Origin: an uncultured Clostridia bacterium
Lineage (GTDB): Bacteria; Bacillota; Clostridia; Christensenellales; UBA1242
Length of the DNA stretch: 36,070 bases
Direction of reading: 5' to 3'
Assembly: GCA_944383375.1 (NCBI GenBank)
Contig: CALWPG010000010.1
Coordinates: 1-36,070 of the forward strand
Below the pieces are notes generated by a model that had not been told where the DNA came from, did not search any database, and worked only from the letters and a program-made list of their open reading frames with translations. Below are positions 11,461 through 20,849 of this stretch, in pieces; position 1 is the first letter of the stretch; each line of letters begins with the position of its first letter. A program made the translations under genes and the position numbers.

Positions 11461-12252
11461 ATGAAAAAACATGAAATATTAAATAAAATATTAAAAATAT
11501 TGTCAAATTATTTAAAAATAAATATTATTTTTGGAAATAATTATGAAAAAGATAGAATGTTATTAAGAGGAATTTTAAACCAGTGCCTAAATTTAAAAGG
11601 CATTAAAGAAGATTTTTATATTTTGCAAGATAAATTATTAAGATTGGAATTGAATGAAAAAACAATAATTTCAAAAAAAAATTTAAAATTTAAAAATAAC
11701 ATTGCACTATACTTTGGTGATATAACTTTAATTAAATCCGATGCAATTGTAAATGCTGCAAACGATGAATATTTGGGTTGTTTTATTCCATGTCATAATT
11801 CCATAGATAACATAATACAAACCTATGGTGGTTTTCAAATCAGGGATGAGCTTTTAACTTTAAAGTCCTTGCCCGATTATGAAAGACAGTTTGTTAAAGT
11901 AACGAAAGGTTACAATTTACCAAGTAAATATATCTTTCACGTTGCTGGGCCACACATCGTGGACAAAATAACAGAAAATGACAAAAATCATCTTGCAAGA
12001 TGCTACACAGAATGTTTAAACAAAGCAAAAGAAATGAATTTAAAAAGTATCGCGCTATGTTGTATCTCAACAGGTGTTTACAATTTTGATAATGCACTTG
12101 CGTGTGATATAGCAGTAGACACTGTTGAAAAATGGTTGAAAGATAATAAATATGATATAAAAATTATTTTTGATGTTTTTAAAGAGGAAGATTGTATTTT
12201 ATATGAAAGACGATTACAAACAAAGGCTTATAAAAGCAAAAAAATTGATTGA
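11461..12252 (+). CDS. zinc-type macrodomain ADP-ribose hydrolase
   Basis: The 263-residue product has an N-terminal helical part (1-80) and a macrodomain. NIALYFGDITLIKSDAIVNA (about 80-99) is the typical start; GCFIPCHNSIDN at about 107-118 corresponds to the zinc segment GCFxPxHxCIDN of Zn-macrodomains that reverse mono-ADP-ribosylation made by class M sirtuins; ISTGVYNFD matches the phosphate loop. Here the third zinc ligand position is Ser rather than Cys, although an extra Cys stands just before the His. The next gene is a class M sirtuin and overlaps it by 50 nt, so the two form a writer/eraser pair. The first 300 bases are very AT-rich. The ribosome site (AGGTAAAAG) is weak. Confidence 0.85.
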   Translation: MKKHEILNKILKILSNYLKINIIFGNNYEKDRMLLRGILNQCLNLKGIKEDFYILQDKLLRLELNEKTIISKKNLKFKNNIALYFGDITLIKSDAIVNAANDEYLGCFIPCHNSIDNIIQTYGGFQIRDELLTLKSLPDYERQFVKVTKGYNLPSKYIFHVAGPHIVDKITENDKNHLARCYTECLNKAKEMNLKSIALCCISTGVYNFDNALACDIAVDTVEKWLKDNKYDIKIIFDVFKEEDCILYERRLQTKAYKSKKID

Positions 12253-13050
12253 TGAAGCAGATTATATTTTGATCGGAGCAGGAGCGGGGCTGTCCACTGC
12301 TGCTGGCTTTGAATATGCCGGGAAAACTTTTGAAAAATATTTTTCAGACTTTGAGAAAAAGTATGGGTTTAAGGATATGTACTCGGGAGGCTTTTATCCC
12401 TTTGAAAGTTCACAAGAAAAATGGGCATATTGGTCAAGATTTATTATGTAAACAGATATTTGCATAAAACGGTCAACAAACTTTATTCTAAACTTTTTGA
12501 GCTTGTTAAAAATAAAAATTATTTTGTCATCACAATCAATGTCGATCATCAATTTCAACTTGCAGGATTTGACAAAAACAATCTTTTTTACATGCAAGGA
12601 GACTATGGTCTTTTTCAATGTGGCATTCCTTGTCATAGCAAAACCTATGATAACAAAGAAATTGTAATAAAGATGTTGCATCAGCAAAAGGATATGAAAA
12701 TTCCAAACAGTCTAATTCCCAAATGCCCAGTGTGCGGAAATGAAATGTCAATGAACTTACGTACAGATAGCACTTTTGTGGAAGACGAAGGGTGGCATTT
12801 GCAGGCCAAAGCATATTCAGACTTTATACAAAAATCTAAAGACAAAAAACTTTTACTCATAGATTTGGGAGTGGGTTACAACACCCCAGCGATAATAAGA
12901 TTTCCATTTGAAAAAATGACAGGCATGAACAAAAGCACTCATCTTATTCGCATAAATAAAGATTATGCTTTTTGTAGTGATAAAATTAAAGATAAAACAA
13001 TTTTGTTTTCTGAGGACATATCCGATGTTTTGGATGATCTTTTGAAATAG
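12203..13050 (+). pseudogene. class M sirtuin (SirTM-like), single frameshift
   Basis: The reading frame from ATG 12203 encodes GAGAGLSTAAGFEYAG (NAD-binding) and QEKWAYWSRFI, then hits TAA at 12449. The remainder continues in the next frame: YVNRYLHKT, ITINVDHQFQLAGFD, YMQGDYGLFQC, two Cys pairs (CGIPC and CPVC) and a Rossmann end. Restoring one base near 12443-12447 joins SRFI and YVNRYL as in intact relatives. Gln in YMQGDYGL occupies the place of the usual catalytic His, typical of SirTM enzymes that ADP-ribosylate lipoylated carrier proteins rather than deacylate. The lipoyl carrier and ligase genes usually seen in this operon are not in the window. A sequence error is possible. Confidence 0.85.
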
Positions 13051-13813: not shown

Positions 13814-13932
13814 ATTTAATATGTTATGTTAAGCTTAATCTCATGAACTCTGCTTGATTAAATTTATATAAAAGTGATATTCTAGATCTAAGTAGTGTTT
13901 TCTACCAAATGTAAATTAAATTCAACTAATGG

Positions 13933-13960
13933 TTGAGAACAAAATAACATTAAATATGAT
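13933..13960 (+). promoter_or_regulatory. promoter of the HTH-protease gene
   Basis: TTGAGA (13933-13938), 16 bp, then TATGAT (13955-13960). A TAGGAGGAG ribosome site begins 11 nt later, so the untranslated leader is short. Confidence 0.5.
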
Positions 13961-13983
13961 ATTATTTGCATAGGAGGAGTTCT

Positions 13984-16900
13984 TTGAAGCATTACGGAAA
14001 AGTAATTTCAAATTTAAGAAGAAAGTGCAATATGACGCAACAACAATTGGGAGAGAAATTAAATGTGTCATATCAGGCCGTTTCGAAATGGGAGAATGAT
14101 ATTTCAGAACCAGATCTTTCCACCATTGAAAAGATGGTGGAGATCTTTGATATTTCCATGTCTGATTTTTTTGAAATGGCAAAAGATCCAGAGCATTCAG
14201 ATGGCAAAACTTTACCAGAAGTTGTTGAATCTAAAAAAGTAAGTGACACTAAAAAAAGTTTGATACAATCCAAGCCTTGGTATTTAGCTATAGGTCTTGG
14301 TGTTTTAATCGTAATTTTTGCACTTTGTGCCTTTTTAATTCCGGTAAAATATTCAAGCAGTGAAATATATTCAATGGTCGATCCCTCTGTCTTTTGTATA
14401 ACAGCCGAAGGAAGTTTCGGACAGTCTGCAGGTTCGGGATTTTTTATAAACAACAAAGGTCTGGCTGTGACAAATTATCATGTGATAAAAAATTGCACCA
14501 GTGGCAAAGTACAACTAAGCAATGGTGAAACATATGACATACTTAAAATTGTTGGTTGTGATGAGGACAAAGACATAGCCATTATACAAATAGATATTGA
14601 AAGTTCAAAAAGTGCAAAGATTGGCGATAGCAACAAGATTAAAGTTGGTGATGTCGTGTATGCCATTGGTTATCCAGAATCATTTCAATTAGGAAGCGCA
14701 AATAGTACATTCACGCAAGGTATTATTTCAAAAGTTTCATATACATACGAAGACAACACCTACATCCAGACCACAGTGGATATGACTCGAGGCAACAGTG
14801 GAGGCGTGCTTTTAAACAGCCAAGGTGAGGTCATTGGGATAACGACAATGATGCTCACGGATGGCATTGTAGATTATATGAATATGGCCATTCCTATAAA
14901 TAGAGTTGATGAGGTGGAGCACGATTTAAACATGTCCTTATTGGACTATTATGAAAGGAACAAGGTCTTTTATTTTTACAGCGATGGTCAAGTTATTCAT
15001 AGTTTGAACTTCATAAGAGGAGACATGATCAAAAAAATAGATGATCCGACAAAATTGGGTTATATTTTTGAGGGCTGGTATGAGACTTCCGAGTATACAA
15101 AAGAATTTGATTTTGATTCCCCAGTTTATGATAAAACCCAATGTTTCGCAAAGTGGACTCCAATTTCTTATACTATTAAATTTAATGCCAATGGTGGTAC
15201 GGGAGAAATGTCCGATGTTGTCGCAACTTATGACCAAGCCCTTACTTTGCCATCGTTGACCTTCAGCAACCCTCATCATAACTTTGTAAAGTGGGAAAGA
15301 CAGGATAATAAACAAGCATATTCTAACAACCAAAGTATATTTAATTTAACAACTCAAGATAAAGCAATAATTATTCTAGATGCAATATGGGAGATTCAAA
15401 AATATACCATCATATTTGATGGAAACAATGCCCAAAGTGGAGAAATGAGCAATTTGGTTTTGGAGTACGACCAAGTCATAGATCTGCCAAAAAATCAATA
15501 TGAAAAACAAGGATACATTTTTGAGGGATGGACTTATGACGACAAGGTGTACCAAGACATGCAGGAAGTTTCAAAACTTTGTGAAACAGAGGGCACAATA
15601 ACGCTCACTGCCAAGTGGCAGCCTATTAGCTATGTGGTAAGATATGAGTTTGAGGGTCAGTCAAGCTATGAGCAAACTTTTTACTATGATCAACCACAAA
15701 GCCTTTTGCCTGCTACTTTTGAAAAACCATACCATACCTTTACATATTGGTATTGTGAATCAGAAAGACTGAAATTTGACGATCAAGTACAAATCTTTAA
15801 TTTGACATCAACTCAAGGAGAGGTTTTTATCTTTACAGCAAATTTTAGAGAAAACATTTACACCGTACGTTACAACCCATCAACTGAGGTGGATTTGAAC
15901 AATTGCGTGGAAGTACAATTAAAGTATTCGCAAGAGATTCAATCGCGGGCTTGTATGTTTACAAAACTGGGTTACAACTTTTCACATTGGGTGGATGAAT
16001 ATGGCAATATTTATGAACGTTCAATGCAATATATTGATGGTAAATATGTTGAGGTGGGAACACCAATAAGTAAACTCACGCCTGTAGATCAAGATGTTGT
16101 GGATTTCTTTGCAGTATGGGAAATGGTTACATATAAAGTGTTTTATAGATATAAGCTAAAAAGTGGAACAAAAGATGTCGAATTGGGGACATTTGCCTAT
16201 GAAGACGAAATTGTTTTGTTGCAGCCACAATATATTGATGATGGTTATGAATTTGAGTATTGGCTACTTCGGCCAAATTGGGAAACTGCAATGCCAGGTG
16301 ATGTAGTTTCTCGGTTATCAACCCAAAACACCTATGACGCATACATTGAGGCTGTGTACAAACCAAAGCTTTACACCATCAACTTTGATGGCAATGGTGC
16401 AACCAAAGGTGAAATGCAACCTGTTGAGGCAACATTTGACAGTGAGGTCACATTGCCACAAAATGAATTTATCAAAGATGGATACACATTCTATGGTTGG
16501 AAGTATGAAGATCAAATTTACACGACAAACAACATTGGAATACCAATTAGCACCTATGCCGAGAGTATAACACTCACAGCTGTTTGGCTAGACAATTTAA
16601 AAGGTGAGGGTACATTTTCAAATCCTTATACTATTTCTACAATTGAAGATATAAATCAATTCTTTAAACTCTCACAAATTCACCAATTCAAAAATAGTCA
16701 TGTCGTATTACAAAACGACATAGATTGCAGCTTTGCCAAACTACCTTCAACCAATTTTGCAGGTGTTTTTGATGGGAAGGGGCACAAACTCATAAACGTG
16801 GACTATCAGGATGGAACATTATTTCAGGAAAACAGTGGCGTTATTTTGAATTTTGGCATTGAAAATTTGAAAATTGATTTAGTCAATGAAAACGACAGTG

Positions 16901-18435
16901 TCTATGTATATGGGTTAGCCAAACTCAATAAAGGATATATCTCACGTTGTCATGTCAAAGGGGATATAACCGTGAGCAGTACGGGTAGTGTGTATATATA
17001 TGGATTTGTTGGAAGCAACGCATCAATAGGTGCTCAAAGACAAATTGAATATTGTTTTGCAAATTTGAGTGTGAATATTTCCTCAGATTCCGATATAGAC
17101 ACTTGTTTGGTCTATGGATTTGCTGGAGGGAGTAATTACAATGTGGATTATAATTACAGTGTACTATCCTTAACTGCAAATTTAAAAATTGTTAACAATC
17201 TTATCGTAAATGCCTATGGCTCAAAGAACGACCATAGTTTCGCAAAGGCAAATATTGATGTGAGTGTGGATAATGCCAATAATTATAATTTCTCGCAAAC
17301 TGCTACTTATTATTCAGATGATAGCTATATCAAGGTTTTGATTGGTGGGAAATCAGTTCCAAAACTTGTTGAAAAAGTCACGGCACTTTCAAATTTGACA
17401 AACAAACAATGGATGGAAGAAAACTTGTTTGATGTGTCGGGTGCATGGATTTATGATTCCATTAATTTTCCAATGCCAAGTTACACCTTCCAAAAGGTGA
17501 TTGAAACGCAAGAACAATTTATTTCTCTTAACAATGGAGTTTTAGTTGGTGACTATATATTAAATTGCGACATTGATCTAAGTGAAAATAACAATTTTAG
17601 GATTGCAGCAAACTATGGCTCATTTGATGGAAATGGACACGTGATTAAAAATTACTCTTTAACAGAAAATGACTATAAAAATAACTATGGTCTGTTTGAA
17701 AAAAATTTTGGCACAATTAAAAATTTGGGTGTAGACAATTTACTTTTTGATCTACATTTCAGAGATCTTGCTGTGAATGTGGCAGGACTTGTTGTTGAAA
17801 ACTGGGGCACTGTCAATGCTTGTTTTGTTAGAGGAGATATTGAGGCATTATCAATCGACAGCGACTGTATAGTGGGTGGAATTGTTGCCATTTCAAGATC
17901 AGGAGAAGTTTTGAACAGCTATTCAGACGTTTCGGTTTATGCAAGTGCAACATCTGGAGCATATTCCGATGTAAAGGCAAATGCATATTCAGGTGGAATA
18001 ATAGCGATTGGAGAGGGAGAAGTTGAAAATTGCTATAGTGTAAAAGACGTGGTCACATATGCTCATTATGCAAATGGAACATTGTTTTCCGCCTATGGAA
18101 TTTCAGGCGCAGATGGAATTGTGAAAAATAGTTTTGTCTTGTCCAATGTAGCAGTTTCAGAATATAATTCCAGTGGTAAATACCAAGCTGGTGGAATAAG
18201 CAAAGAGTTCGAAAATTCCTTCGCCTATGAATGGCAAACTGTGACGGTCATAGAAGAGGACCTGTCTTTTGGCGACAAGTCGTATGATGAATTTTGTTCT
18301 TTGGTATTCCTTGAAGCACTTGATTTTGAGCAGTTTGTCTCAAAGGAAAATTTATTGCAAAATGAAAATGCAGTTTGGGTGATAACTGAAACTGATTTGC
18401 CAAAATTATGGTTTGAAGAAGAGGGAAATTTATGA
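13984..18435 (+). CDS. XRE-HTH, membrane, trypsin-like protease, B-repeat and beta-helix fusion
   Basis: The 1483-residue product begins at TTG 13984 (AGGAGG 6 nt before). Order of parts: XRE helix-turn-helix (about 3-57, MTQQQLGEKLNVSYQAVSKWE); linker; one membrane helix (about 99-121); S1C/DegP-like serine protease with His166 (TNYHV), Asp197 (DKDIAII) and Ser272 (RGNSGG); about seven InlB-type B repeats (about 329-870, each ending in a W motif such as AKW or AVW, with GYxFxGW); then a GLUG-like right-handed beta-helix region (about 876-1483). No PDZ domain is evident. The HTH would sit in the cytoplasm and the protease and repeats outside. This could be a membrane-tethered transcription factor coupled to an envelope protease; that function is inference. 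The frame is free of lesions over 4.45 kb. It overlaps the next gene by 4 nt. Confidence 0.88.
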   Translation: MKHYGKVISNLRRKCNMTQQQLGEKLNVSYQAVSKWENDISEPDLSTIEKMVEIFDISMSDFFEMAKDPEHSDGKTLPEVVESKKVSDTKKSLIQSKPWYLAIGLGVLIVIFALCAFLIPVKYSSSEIYSMVDPSVFCITAEGSFGQSAGSGFFINNKGLAVTNYHVIKNCTSGKVQLSNGETYDILKIVGCDEDKDIAIIQIDIESSKSAKIGDSNKIKVGDVVYAIGYPESFQLGSANSTFTQGIISKVSYTYEDNTYIQTTVDMTRGNSGGVLLNSQGEVIGITTMMLTDGIVDYMNMAIPINRVDEVEHDLNMSLLDYYERNKVFYFYSDGQVIHSLNFIRGDMIKKIDDPTKLGYIFEGWYETSEYTKEFDFDSPVYDKTQCFAKWTPISYTIKFNANGGTGEMSDVVATYDQALTLPSLTFSNPHHNFVKWERQDNKQAYSNNQSIFNLTTQDKAIIILDAIWEIQKYTIIFDGNNAQSGEMSNLVLEYDQVIDLPKNQYEKQGYIFEGWTYDDKVYQDMQEVSKLCETEGTITLTAKWQPISYVVRYEFEGQSSYEQTFYYDQPQSLLPATFEKPYHTFTYWYCESERLKFDDQVQIFNLTSTQGEVFIFTANFRENIYTVRYNPSTEVDLNNCVEVQLKYSQEIQSRACMFTKLGYNFSHWVDEYGNIYERSMQYIDGKYVEVGTPISKLTPVDQDVVDFFAVWEMVTYKVFYRYKLKSGTKDVELGTFAYEDEIVLLQPQYIDDGYEFEYWLLRPNWETAMPGDVVSRLSTQNTYDAYIEAVYKPKLYTINFDGNGATKGEMQPVEATFDSEVTLPQNEFIKDGYTFYGWKYEDQIYTTNNIGIPISTYAESITLTAVWLDNLKGEGTFSNPYTISTIEDINQFFKLSQIHQFKNSHVVLQNDIDCSFAKLPSTNFAGVFDGKGHKLINVDYQDGTLFQENSGVILNFGIENLKIDLVNENDSVYVYGLAKLNKGYISRCHVKGDITVSSTGSVYIYGFVGSNASIGAQRQIEYCFANLSVNISSDSDIDTCLVYGFAGGSNYNVDYNYSVLSLTANLKIVNNLIVNAYGSKNDHSFAKANIDVSVDNANNYNFSQTATYYSDDSYIKVLIGGKSVPKLVEKVTALSNLTNKQWMEENLFDVSGAWIYDSINFPMPSYTFQKVIETQEQFISLNNGVLVGDYILNCDIDLSENNNFRIAANYGSFDGNGHVIKNYSLTENDYKNNYGLFEKNFGTIKNLGVDNLLFDLHFRDLAVNVAGLVVENWGTVNACFVRGDIEALSIDSDCIVGGIVAISRSGEVLNSYSDVSVYASATSGAYSDVKANAYSGGIIAIGEGEVENCYSVKDVVTYAHYANGTLFSAYGISGADGIVKNSFVLSNVAVSEYNSSGKYQAGGISKEFENSFAYEWQTVTVIEEDLSFGDKSYDEFCSLVFLEALDFEQFVSKENLLQNENAVWVITETDLPKLWFEEEGNL

Positions 18436-18899
18436 AAATTACTATCAACAATGAATTGACAAAAAACAAAGAACTGTATTTTGAGGAAGGTTTTTGGACG
18501 GGTAAAAGAACTGTCAAATATGATGGAGTTACTTTGCCAAAACAAAGAAAAAATTTATATCTTTACGACAACGGACAGACTACTGAATATTTTGAAATAA
18601 TTGGTAATCAATTGATTGGAATAAGCATAAAATTGTTTGGCAAAAATGTTGAAATATTACGGAAACTTGAATGGTACGAAATTGTTATGTCTCTTCTCGT
18701 TTTTTTGCCATGTATACTCTTTGGAGCAATTGGGGGTGTCTTTGGAGGTGCTTTGGGATTTACAAATTTGGTGATAATAAGGCAAGTTGATAAATTGTAT
18801 CTAAAAATAATTTTTTCAGTGGAATTTTTGGCACTTGCTATGCTAGCAAGTTATATCTTCGCCGTGCTAATTTTAAAAATTGTTTTTCCTTATTTGTAA
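18432..18899 (+). CDS. small integral membrane protein coupled to the HTH-protease
   Basis: The 155-residue product starts inside the stop of the preceding gene (ATGA overlap), a sign of translational coupling. Residues 1-75 are a soluble beta-rich head (FWTGKRTVKYDG, NLYLYDNG, a segment FEIIGNQLIGISIKLFG). Two hydrophobic hairpins follow (about 80-115, rich in Gly: GAIGGVFGGALGF; and about 122-153), suggesting three or four membrane passes. I do not recognise the family. Its fixed overlap with the giant protein suggests a membrane partner of it. Confidence 0.7.
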   Translation: MKITINNELTKNKELYFEEGFWTGKRTVKYDGVTLPKQRKNLYLYDNGQTTEYFEIIGNQLIGISIKLFGKNVEILRKLEWYEIVMSLLVFLPCILFGAIGGVFGGALGFTNLVIIRQVDKLYLKIIFSVEFLALAMLASYIFAVLILKIVFPYL

Positions 18900-18914: not shown

Positions 18915-18942
18915 TTGACATTTTTTGGTAATATGCTATAAT
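18915..18942 (+). promoter_or_regulatory. strong promoter of the exporter leader
   Basis: Consensus TTGACA (18915-18920), 16 bp, consensus TATAAT (18937-18942) with extended TGC. The best promoter in the window; it faces a leader that would be terminated twice by default. Confidence 0.85.
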
Positions 18943-18961
18943 TGGGCAAAGGAATAAAGAA

Positions 18962-18997
18962 ATGTACACTATTCAAGAAAGATTTAAGTTGATATGA
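18962..18997 (+). CDS. 11-residue leader peptide of the ABC exporter
   Basis: AAAGGA (18948-18953) lies 8 nt before ATG 18962, and the frame reads MYTIQERFKLI then TGA. It begins about 13 nt after the predicted transcription start. Its last codons (18981-18990) form one arm of a long-range helix, and its stop codon touches the first terminator stem, so translation of this peptide should control the downstream structures. Short peptides of this kind precede drug-responsive resistance and exporter genes in Bacillota. Confidence 0.65.
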   Translation: MYTIQERFKLI

Positions 18998-19038
18998 CAT
19001 CGTATAAAACTCAAGGCAAGTTTTATATGATGTTTTTT
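18997..19038 (+). terminator. terminator T1 of the exporter leader
   Basis: ACATCGTATAAAACT pairs with AGTTTTATATGATGT across a 7-nt loop, followed by TTTTT. It starts on the last base of the leader-peptide stop codon. Confidence 0.8.
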
Positions 19039-19082
19039 GCGTATATAAAACTTGTGGACTTAAATCGTATTTGATAATCAAT

Positions 19083-19115
19083 AAAGTTCACAGCTTCGTC
19101 TTGTGAACTTTTTTT
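19083..19115 (+). terminator. terminator T2 of the exporter leader
   Basis: AAAGTTCACA and TGTGAACTTT form a 10-bp stem with a 9-nt loop and a T run, 48 nt before the exporter start codon. Confidence 0.85.
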
Positions 19116-19163: not shown

Positions 19164-20849
19164 ATGTTTTTAAAAAGATACAAAAATTTATATAAATTCA
19201 AACCTTATTTTGCAAAGTACAAAAGTCAAACAATTTTACTTGTTATTTGCATGATAATCGCGAGCAGTATGGGTATGGTATTAGCGTACCTTATGAGTGA
19301 ACAATTATCGGCGATTTCCAACATCAATATTTCTAAGATGGTCAAATCTACCGTGTTTATTTTGGTTGCTGTGCTAGTCCATCATACAACTTGGTTCTTT
19401 TGGGATAAAATATCTGCAATTATTGGCAATAAAGTTGCGAATGATATACGTAATGATATTTTTTCAAATGCACTTAGCACACAATACCAAATAATTAAAA
19501 ATAACTCCACAGGCTATTACATTGAGAGACTAAACGATGACACCAATGAGATTTCATTTTTTGTTCAAAATGTTTATGGTACATTGGTGGATGTCGCAAC
19601 TAATTTTACTTTCTTGATAATTATTTTCTTTCTTAATTGGCAGTGTGGGTTGTTTTTTAGCATAGGCTTAATTGTGCTTTATTTTTTGGATGTGCTTAAA
19701 ATTAAAGTAGAGTTAAAGCATACAAAAAAGATAAAAGTGCTTAGTGAACGACTAAACAGCAAAATGACGGAAGCAATTCGGGGTATTAAAGATATAAAAG
19801 GGCTTGGCATCAAAAATGAAGTGTGCATGATCAACGGAGAGATCAGCAAACAACTCGCAGTTAAAAATACCAAAATGAAGGTTGACGTGACTTTGCTTGA
19901 AAGATTGAGGACATTTTGTCAATGGGCAATTGACTGTTCTCTTGTGTTTTTGTGCGCGTTTTGGCTTTTTCCTACGGGACAAATCGATGTATTGGTAATT
20001 TTAATAATTTTTAATTACAAAAGTTTGATGTATGACACGATAGGCTTTTTTTCAAAATTAAAGGGATACTATGTTCAGGGGGATTTCAAAGCACAAAGAA
20101 TACTTGAGGTATTAAATGACGACATAAAAGATGTGTTTGGAAACAATACAATTTCAAACAAGAAAAGTAGTATAAAAGTTAAAAATTTGTCATTTTCATA
20201 TGGCGATAAAAAAGTTTTAAAAAATATTTCGCTGAAACTGAAAGAGAATACGGCAACCTTACTGATTGGTGAAAGTGGGAGTGGGAAAAGTATATTTTTT
20301 AGTTTGTTAACAAAACTAAATCCAGTGAAAAATGGTAAAATTTTTATAGATGATGTTGATTTGAACAACCTTGGCGAAGAAGAGCTTACCAAACATATAA
20401 GCATAGTGAATCAAGAGCCATTTGTGTTTAATGATACTCTATATAACAATTTAAGAATAGTTAAACCCACTGCCACGAAGGATGAAATTTACACGGCATG
20501 TAAAAATGCCCATATCTATGATGAAGTAGTATCAATGAAAGATGGATTTAACACCATTTTGGCTGAAAATGGAAGCAACTTAAGTGGTGGACAAAAACAG
20601 AGATTGTAAATTGCACGCGCAATTTTAAAAAACACTCCAATTATTCTTTTTGATGAACCAACGAGTGCTCTTGATGGCGAAAATCAAAAGAAATTTTTAG
20701 CTACAATCAAACAATTAAAAAACGACAAAATTATTTTTGTGATAGCACACAACATACAAAATACATCTGTCTTTGACAAAGTTATCGAAATTTCAGATGG
20801 TAAAATCAAATCAACTTGTCATTTTGAGAAACGTCAACAACTTCATTGA
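19164..20849 (+). pseudogene. ABC exporter (membrane plus ATPase domains) with one in-frame stop
   Basis: The frame would encode about 560 residues: a six-helix exporter domain (about 1-320), then an ATPase with Walker A IGESGSGKS (near 368), signature LSGGQKQR (near 473), Walker B IILFDEPTSALD and the H-loop FVIAHN. A TAA at 20607-20609 falls right after LSGGQKQRL; the same frame then reads IARAILKNTPIILFDEP to the true end at 20849. An ordinary sense codon (Ser, Ala or Cys in relatives) has been replaced. Without Walker B the product could not hydrolyse ATP. AAAGGAG precedes the ATG. The leader before it suggests induction by a translation-affecting compound. Confidence 0.88.

Follow-up and report, generated by a model that had tools for sequence, protein, structure and literature searches.

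Membrane-tethered transcription regulators are common, and their inputs are mostly unknown. In transmembrane transcription regulators such as ToxR, CadC and TcpP, a DNA-binding domain, a membrane helix and an external domain share one chain, as set out in PMC10269533. In co-component systems (VtrA/VtrC, ToxR/ToxS), an overlapping gene for a small membrane protein follows that of the tethered regulator, and VtrC-type partners are periplasmic lipocalin-like sensors, according to passages of PMC9214523. Two groups of proteases also bear comparison: DegS and HtrA (S1C), with a membrane-anchored protease domain carrying a catalytic triad, and M26 IgA1 protease, with a beta-helix region whose fold is also that of B. 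ovatus 3n6z.

The protein analysed here resembles each of these in part. It is encoded in a window, the whole 36,070-nucleotide stretch of DNA that we examined, from a 0.99-Mb genome (995 kb, 18 contigs, stated completeness 99%). As in transmembrane transcription regulators, its DNA-binding domain and membrane helix lie in one polypeptide, an arrangement shared by all 21 homologues (the window protein included). Unlike them, it belongs to an uncultured Clostridia bacterium, has an XRE-type helix-turn-helix (HTH) and carries an exterior ~1360 residues long that comprises an S1C protease domain plus surface repeats; in a word search, 'peptidase', 'trypsin' and 'XRE' were absent from the main text of PMC10269533. 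As in co-component systems, an overlapping gene for a small membrane protein, P0002, comes next, but unlike in VtrC its beta-domain precedes the helices, is probably cytoplasmic and is FAIM-like at best. Unlike DegS and HtrA, the chain carries an HTH, B-repeats and a beta-helix, has no PDZ domain (no Pfam match at E ≤ 1 in the window protein) and has lost the triad in a third of homologues. The last ~310 residues share the M26 beta-helix fold, whereas no M26 metalloprotease domain was matched in the window protein (Pfam, E ≤ 1). A limited search of open-licence PMC literature found no published description of an HTH–membrane helix–protease chain. Functionally, transmembrane transcription regulators and co-component cassettes, as those sources portray them, are the closest; the locus appears to be a variant with an XRE HTH, a protease-derived and adhesin-like exterior and its own promoter as the only target. 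On comparative sequence grounds, and with a probability of about 0.62, we read the protein as a membrane-tethered one-component regulator that doubles as a long surface protein and acts chiefly on its own two-gene operon.

Table 1. Coordinates of the regulator gene, its partner and their control elements in the window.
Feature	Position	Strand	Basis
Upstream operator half-site TTCTAC (consensus TTCAAC)	13900..13905	+	Conserved in homologues
Operator palindrome TTCAAC-TAATG-GTTGAG	13921..13937	+	0 mismatches to TTCAAC-N5-GTTGAG
Alternative promoter, TTGAGA and TATGAT, spacing 16	13933-13938, 13955-13960	+	Promoter consensus match
Proposed extended -10, TGA-TATTAT	13957..13965	+	Sequence reading; starts 22 nt after palindrome
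Shine–Dalgarno AGGAGGAG, eight bases, strong	13972..13979	+	Sequence inspection
HTH-TM-protease-B-repeat-beta-helix protein, 1483 aa, TTG start	13984..18435	+	ORF, domain and structure-by-sequence searches
XRE/Cro HTH, residues 10-62	14011..14169	+	Pfam HTH_3, E 4.8e-14
Single transmembrane helix, residues ~101-121	14284..14346	+	Hydrophobicity and charge balance, 21 homologues
HtrA/Trypsin_2 protease domain, residues 146-315	14419..14928	+	Pfam, NCBIfam, structure-by-sequence, alignment
His166	14479-14481	+	Triad residue, by alignment
Asp197	14572-14574	+	Triad residue, by alignment
Ser272	14797-14799	+	Triad residue, by alignment
Listeria-Bacteroides (B) repeats, six by Pfam, about seven	14974..16623	+	PF09479/Flg_new, 6 stretches
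Two beta-helix domains, residues 881-1483	16624..18432	+	AlphaFold2 pLDDT 89.4, pTM 0.84
P0002, 155-aa partner, ATG start	18432..18899	+	ORF; AlphaFold2 pLDDT 87.5
Terminator-like hairpin after the two-gene operon	18996..19034	+	Consensus match only

The gene is a single intact frame with zero internal stops in the ORF list and its translation, as the earlier note had read it. The listed ORF spans TTG 13966-18435; TTG 13984 is preferred as the start, with AGGAGGAG ahead, and a Shine–Dalgarno-like sequence also precedes the equivalent start in homologues. Both the HTH and the membrane helix that the earlier note had placed on one chain were recovered there. HTH residues Ser29, Gln31, Ala32, Ser34, Lys35, Trp36 and Glu37 are invariant across the 21 homologues. 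Charge balance favours an inside N-terminus in 17/21 homologues (3 ties, 1 against), and the protease is therefore predicted to lie outside rather than in the cytoplasm; with the domain searches, this supports an HTH inside and a protease with repeats outside on the same chain.

The protease domain is of the S1C type, a chymotrypsin-fold domain with His/Asp/Ser present, so the claimed S1C protease with a full triad stands, albeit without a PDZ domain. Trypsin_2 matches residues 150-286 (Pfam, E 6.7e-29), and the best NCBIfam match is TIGR02037 (degP_htrA_DO; residues 146-315, E 5.8e-40), whose score of 137.5 bits lies far under the whole-protein cut-off of 416.2 because the match covers the protease part alone. 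DegQ, HtrA1 and DegP are the nearest solved structures by sequence. The B-repeats start at residue 331 (Pfam, E 3.7e-39); the claimed number of about seven is reached by counting a degenerate copy, whereas Pfam gives six. Further out, the 'GLUG-like' beta-helix of the earlier note holds as a fold, with two beta-helices predicted by AlphaFold2, but the window protein has no Pfam match to Glug at E ≤ 1; among the eight homologues scanned, Glug matches the equivalent region of G222, G150, G294 and G329, and BspA-type leucine-rich repeats form the C-terminal ends of G230 and G028. The second beta-helix resembles PDB 3n6z (Foldseek E 1.1e-7; Z 30.9, rmsd 2.3, 267 aligned) and also the IgA1-protease beta-helices (Z 21-24). 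Some homologues weakly match Peptidase_M26_N.

At a cut-off of E ≤ 1e-40, homologues occur in 21/309 genomes and 11/42 genera of the window's taxonomic family, always as a single frame that spans HTH, helix and protease. This family is probably a reduced-genome lineage of Clostridia. The gene is complete in 19 of the 21 genomes (806-1537 residues); in G011 and G108 the contig ends inside it. This recurrence answers the question of a conserved order and rules out an accidental fusion or a pseudogene. We also sampled 396 genomes at the order level and 391 at the class level, some of which belong to the family. HTH-bearing matches numbered 3/29 in the former, all within the family, and 1/11 in the latter, the window itself; neither sample held an HTH-bearing homologue outside the family, and the remaining protease frames had an HTH in 0/26 and 0/10 cases. 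Several of these HTH-free frames bear zinc-ribbon, SLH-like or other surface parts, as judged by sequence reading. Separate HTH and protease genes are thus not the norm within the family; beyond it, HTH-less protease domains are found. A contig scan found both domains in one frame in 4 of the 80 loci listed, all labelled uncultured Clostridia.

The downstream membrane protein overlaps the stop of the long gene by 4 nt (ATGA, 18432) and has 155 residues, as had been claimed. A P0002 homologue lies directly downstream in 16/19 complete loci (none beside the G028, G222 and G150 genes), which marks it as a real partner. Its model comprises an N-terminal eight-strand domain followed by helices 81-95, 98-118 and 122-151. 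Compared with a lipocalin-like sensor, this predicted domain has FAIM as its best, weak fold match (Foldseek E 0.023, probability 0.99; Z 5.6), and the Pfam E value against FAIM1 is 0.18. Because the domain stands at the very N-terminus and has many Lys and Arg residues, we infer that it lies inside the cell, probably on the cytoplasmic face of the membrane.

Flanking genes other than P0002 are common to few loci or to close pairs only (G140/G177, G028/G108), so the long gene and P0002 behave like a cassette that occurs at many sites or is often lost. The gene neighbours reveal no input for the regulator, and more distant P0002 homologues stand mostly in unrelated surroundings. In G127, an HTH fragment is joined to a P0002 fragment; this decayed copy (L097 7350-8150) lies beside groEL-like genes, and its operator and promoter look intact, the HTH frame is broken and the central part is missing. 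G299 and G310 retain the C-terminal 379 residues ahead of P0002. In G310 (L083 1-410), a TetM/TetW-type ribosomal protection gene abuts the truncated homologue with its C-terminal end, and the G299 contig (L082) ends ~120 nt 5' of the frame truncated in the same way. G177 also encodes a different XRE-TM protein (L093 700-3232; 685 aa) with a P0002 paralogue 19 nt downstream and its own operator, TTCTAC-N5-GTAGAG, with a -10 counted by eye 33 nt further on; its exterior has no Pfam match. The pairing of XRE-TM proteins with P0002 may be a wider system.

Mobility on plasmids or named phages was considered and rejected: no record among 72,556 from plasmids and 50,697 from phages matches as much as 80% of the N-terminal 330 residues. 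In the IMG/VR record G1044 (L257, L297, L298), a convergent replication module of phage-like type (DNA polymerase, primase/helicase, Erf) lies ~110 nt from the end of the cassette, and the opposite flank looks host-like; with phage-like genes on one side only, the record is at most a candidate for phage carriage. On the same record, L297 8033-10882 encodes in one frame Exo_endo_phos and then a group II intron reverse transcriptase/maturase; an exonuclease gene may here contain an in-frame intron. An empty-site comparison via the upstream HAD gene matched 4/17 genus genomes, the window's own included; the HAD gene is nearly full length in one other genome, G014, where the right flank is not clear on the contig.

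Other window genes were noted in passing. A macro-domain ADP-ribose hydrolase-like gene (11461-12252; PRK04143, E 5.6e-66) and a gene with a weak SIR2 match (12421-13050; E 0.005) lie just upstream and form a possible macro/sirtuin pair. Ahead of the ABC transporter at 19164, positions 18915-19111 hold a perfect TTGACA-16-TATAAT promoter with TG and then two terminator-like hairpins; this arrangement resembles an attenuated leader and has no Rfam match. That transporter frame (19164-20609, 481 aa) stops within its ATPase domain (profile 1-117 of 137) and is perhaps a frameshifted gene.

The evidence for regulation comes from the DNA ahead of the gene. The palindrome TTCAAC-N5-GTTGAG occurs within 2 mismatches upstream of 20/21 homologues, whereas shuffled upstreams average 0.1 such cases and reach 2 at most, in a test that counts related upstreams as separate. 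An extra half-site with ≤1 mismatch is found in 21/21; its distance 5' of the palindrome is 21 bp in the window and 20 bp in the other 20. In 19 rows, with the near-duplicates G177 and G108 excluded, mean information is 1.33 bits for the palindrome, 1.44 for the extra half-site and 0.20 for the rest. An independent 22nd homologue, L257, which played no part in deriving the motif, has a perfect palindrome and, by sequence reading, the same extra half-site and the same spacing from palindrome to -10. The operator also follows the recognition helix: the 13 proteins with Tyr at residue 30 have a total of 2 operator mismatches, and the eight with Phe, Ser or Ala have 15 (Mann-Whitney p 4.5e-5, with kinship ignored and the close pairs G140/G177 and G028/G108 counted). 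Both palindrome arms have changed jointly in G140 and G177 (TTCTAC...GTAGAG). Rfam gave no match. This conservation and covariation support, at the level of sequence comparison, binding of a specific operator by the HTH from the membrane, and autoregulation. A link between the three half-sites and an HtrA trimer was considered and is not supported, as other XRE promoters share the extra half-site; the search pattern for those promoters itself requires it and is no independent test of the trimer idea.

The direction of control is suggested by promoter geometry. In 20/20 other homologues, a TG-N stands ahead of the -10, which begins 31-33 nt downstream of the palindrome, and -35 matches are poor (≥3 mismatches) in 14/21. 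Activation is likelier than repression, because in most homologues the operator stands just upstream of the -35 and a poor -35 accompanies an extended -10. Counting against activation, the window promoter is atypical: its operator either precedes the proposed -10 by 22 nt, roughly a helical turn less than in other homologues, or overlaps the alternative TTGAGA-16-TATGAT, an overlap that repression would fit. One could then suppose simple negative autoregulation, in which the HTH merely caps the amount of an ordinary adhesin and no external signal is involved. An operator found at the own promoter only, and possibly overlapping a -35 in the window, agrees with this; we consider it unlikely, as the operator lies upstream of the -35 position in 20/21 and mere repression would be simpler with a soluble protein than with a membrane-bound one.

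The search for further targets returned the gene itself. With ≤1 mismatch and a constrained spacer, the single match in the 995-kb genome is the own promoter; the plain palindrome at 0 mismatches has one additional match there, inside an ORF. Across 11 genomes checked, the gene's own site is present in 11/11, and none has a second promoter copy at ≤1 mismatch. A wider regulon was discarded as a candidate: the 8 further sites, from looser matching, fall inside ORFs (7) or at the 3' end of a gene (1). A long motif that includes the extra half-site gave 26 matches over 309 genomes (control 0/309). This gene accounts for 16 of them and the decayed G127 copy for 1; another 5 fall within ORFs, and the last 4 immediately precede other XRE genes, two of them for XRE-multi-helix and two for XRE-pentapeptide proteins. 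The motif missed the gene in 5/21 gene-bearing genomes (G000, G058, G028, G108 and G329). Nine of the 10 off-gene matches were placed by script, and the one in G205 was assigned through its near-identity to the G198 and G221 matches. Since the long motif also precedes other XRE genes, this type of operator typifies the own promoters of such XRE proteins. Taken together, the matches suggest that the protein switches mainly its own gene; weaker sites may also let it act on others. The same type of palindrome was observed at the own promoters of XRE-multi-helix and XRE-pentapeptide genes in L316, L319, L322, L323 and L004, the last being the XRE-multi-helix gene of the window's own genome, with CTCTACTCACAGTAGA 37 nt ahead of its start; the background figure is 31/956 windows, the loci's own operators included.

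The earlier note had proposed that the protein senses the surface by ligand binding or by self-cleavage that releases the HTH, and the fate of the triad bears on the second route. All three catalytic residues are kept by alignment in 14/21 homologues, including the window protein, and the triad is lost in seven (G040, G058, G153, G322, G222, G150 and G329), where His is substituted, as is Ser unless it falls in a shortened, gapped stretch; the aligned residue in G150 reads Ser, yet within such a stretch. L257, which lacks the His, is an eighth homologue with a broken triad. The triad-less rows sit on one side of one branch (support 99/97), so one loss may explain them all. They keep the HTH and operator. 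HTH identity between triad-bearing and triad-less groups is 62%, equal to the within-group level, and protease identity is 39% between the groups against 44% within the triad-less group; the HTH has thus been held while catalysis has not. Self-cleavage therefore cannot be the family's general mechanism.

As an account of the window protein, a relay in which the external protease cuts its own or another chain near the membrane, after which an intramembrane protease frees the HTH as a soluble regulator, seems improbable to us. A second protease would be needed because one outside cannot reach the cytosolic linker, and no linked one was recognised. Passages of PMC5359297 describe a Gram-positive HtrA that loses its N-terminal membrane anchor through substrate-induced, intermolecular self-processing; by analogy, this keeps a catalytic variant alive for the triad-bearing members. 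A quality-control or secretion-stress protease, or a DegS-like sensor whose HtrA domain detects misfolded protein and whose HTH raises its own synthesis, would suit the DegP/DegS-type domain and own-operon control but is poorly probable too, given the missing PDZ, two other HtrA-like proteases in the same genome, the 7/21 homologues without catalytic residues and the patchy distribution (21/309 genomes).

The best reading makes the protease domain a receptor or stalk module of an autoregulating transmembrane transcription regulator. The HTH would bind the three half-sites inside the cell while the chain sits in the membrane. Outside, the membrane-proximal protease domain would serve as a receptor or substrate-binding module, followed by the B-repeat stalk and a variable beta-helix or leucine-rich tip. 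Receptor occupancy or oligomeric state would set HTH pairing, and operator binding would activate the own promoter in a positive feedback. P0002, with its probably cytoplasmic beta-domain, may help or tune the HTH. In triad-bearing members, the protease may also cut substrates, although the family's record is best explained if cutting is not needed for regulation.

More tentatively, the regulator may be a self-contained, cassette-like surface switch that combines an own-promoter-only regulator tail, positive feedback, a cytoplasmic FAIM-like partner, an external (pseudo)protease receptor and exchangeable tips; we hold this combination possible but doubtful. If true, each cell would decide by arm contact whether to keep displaying the protein, its receptor would be an enzyme-derived (pseudo)protease, and tips of the GLUG-type beta-helix or BspA leucine-rich kind would be swapped from species to species around a constant HTH, operator and partner.

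The locus packs a regulator together with its operator, its partner and a putative external sensor of very large size, in genomes of ~1 Mb. The operator is an immediately testable target, and the natural triad-bearing and triad-less versions separate the catalytic from the signalling role of the protease. An HtrA enzyme turned into a probable signalling pseudoprotease and joined to DNA control would be unusual, and through it a gut bacterium cell may control a surface protein by means of that surface protein itself.
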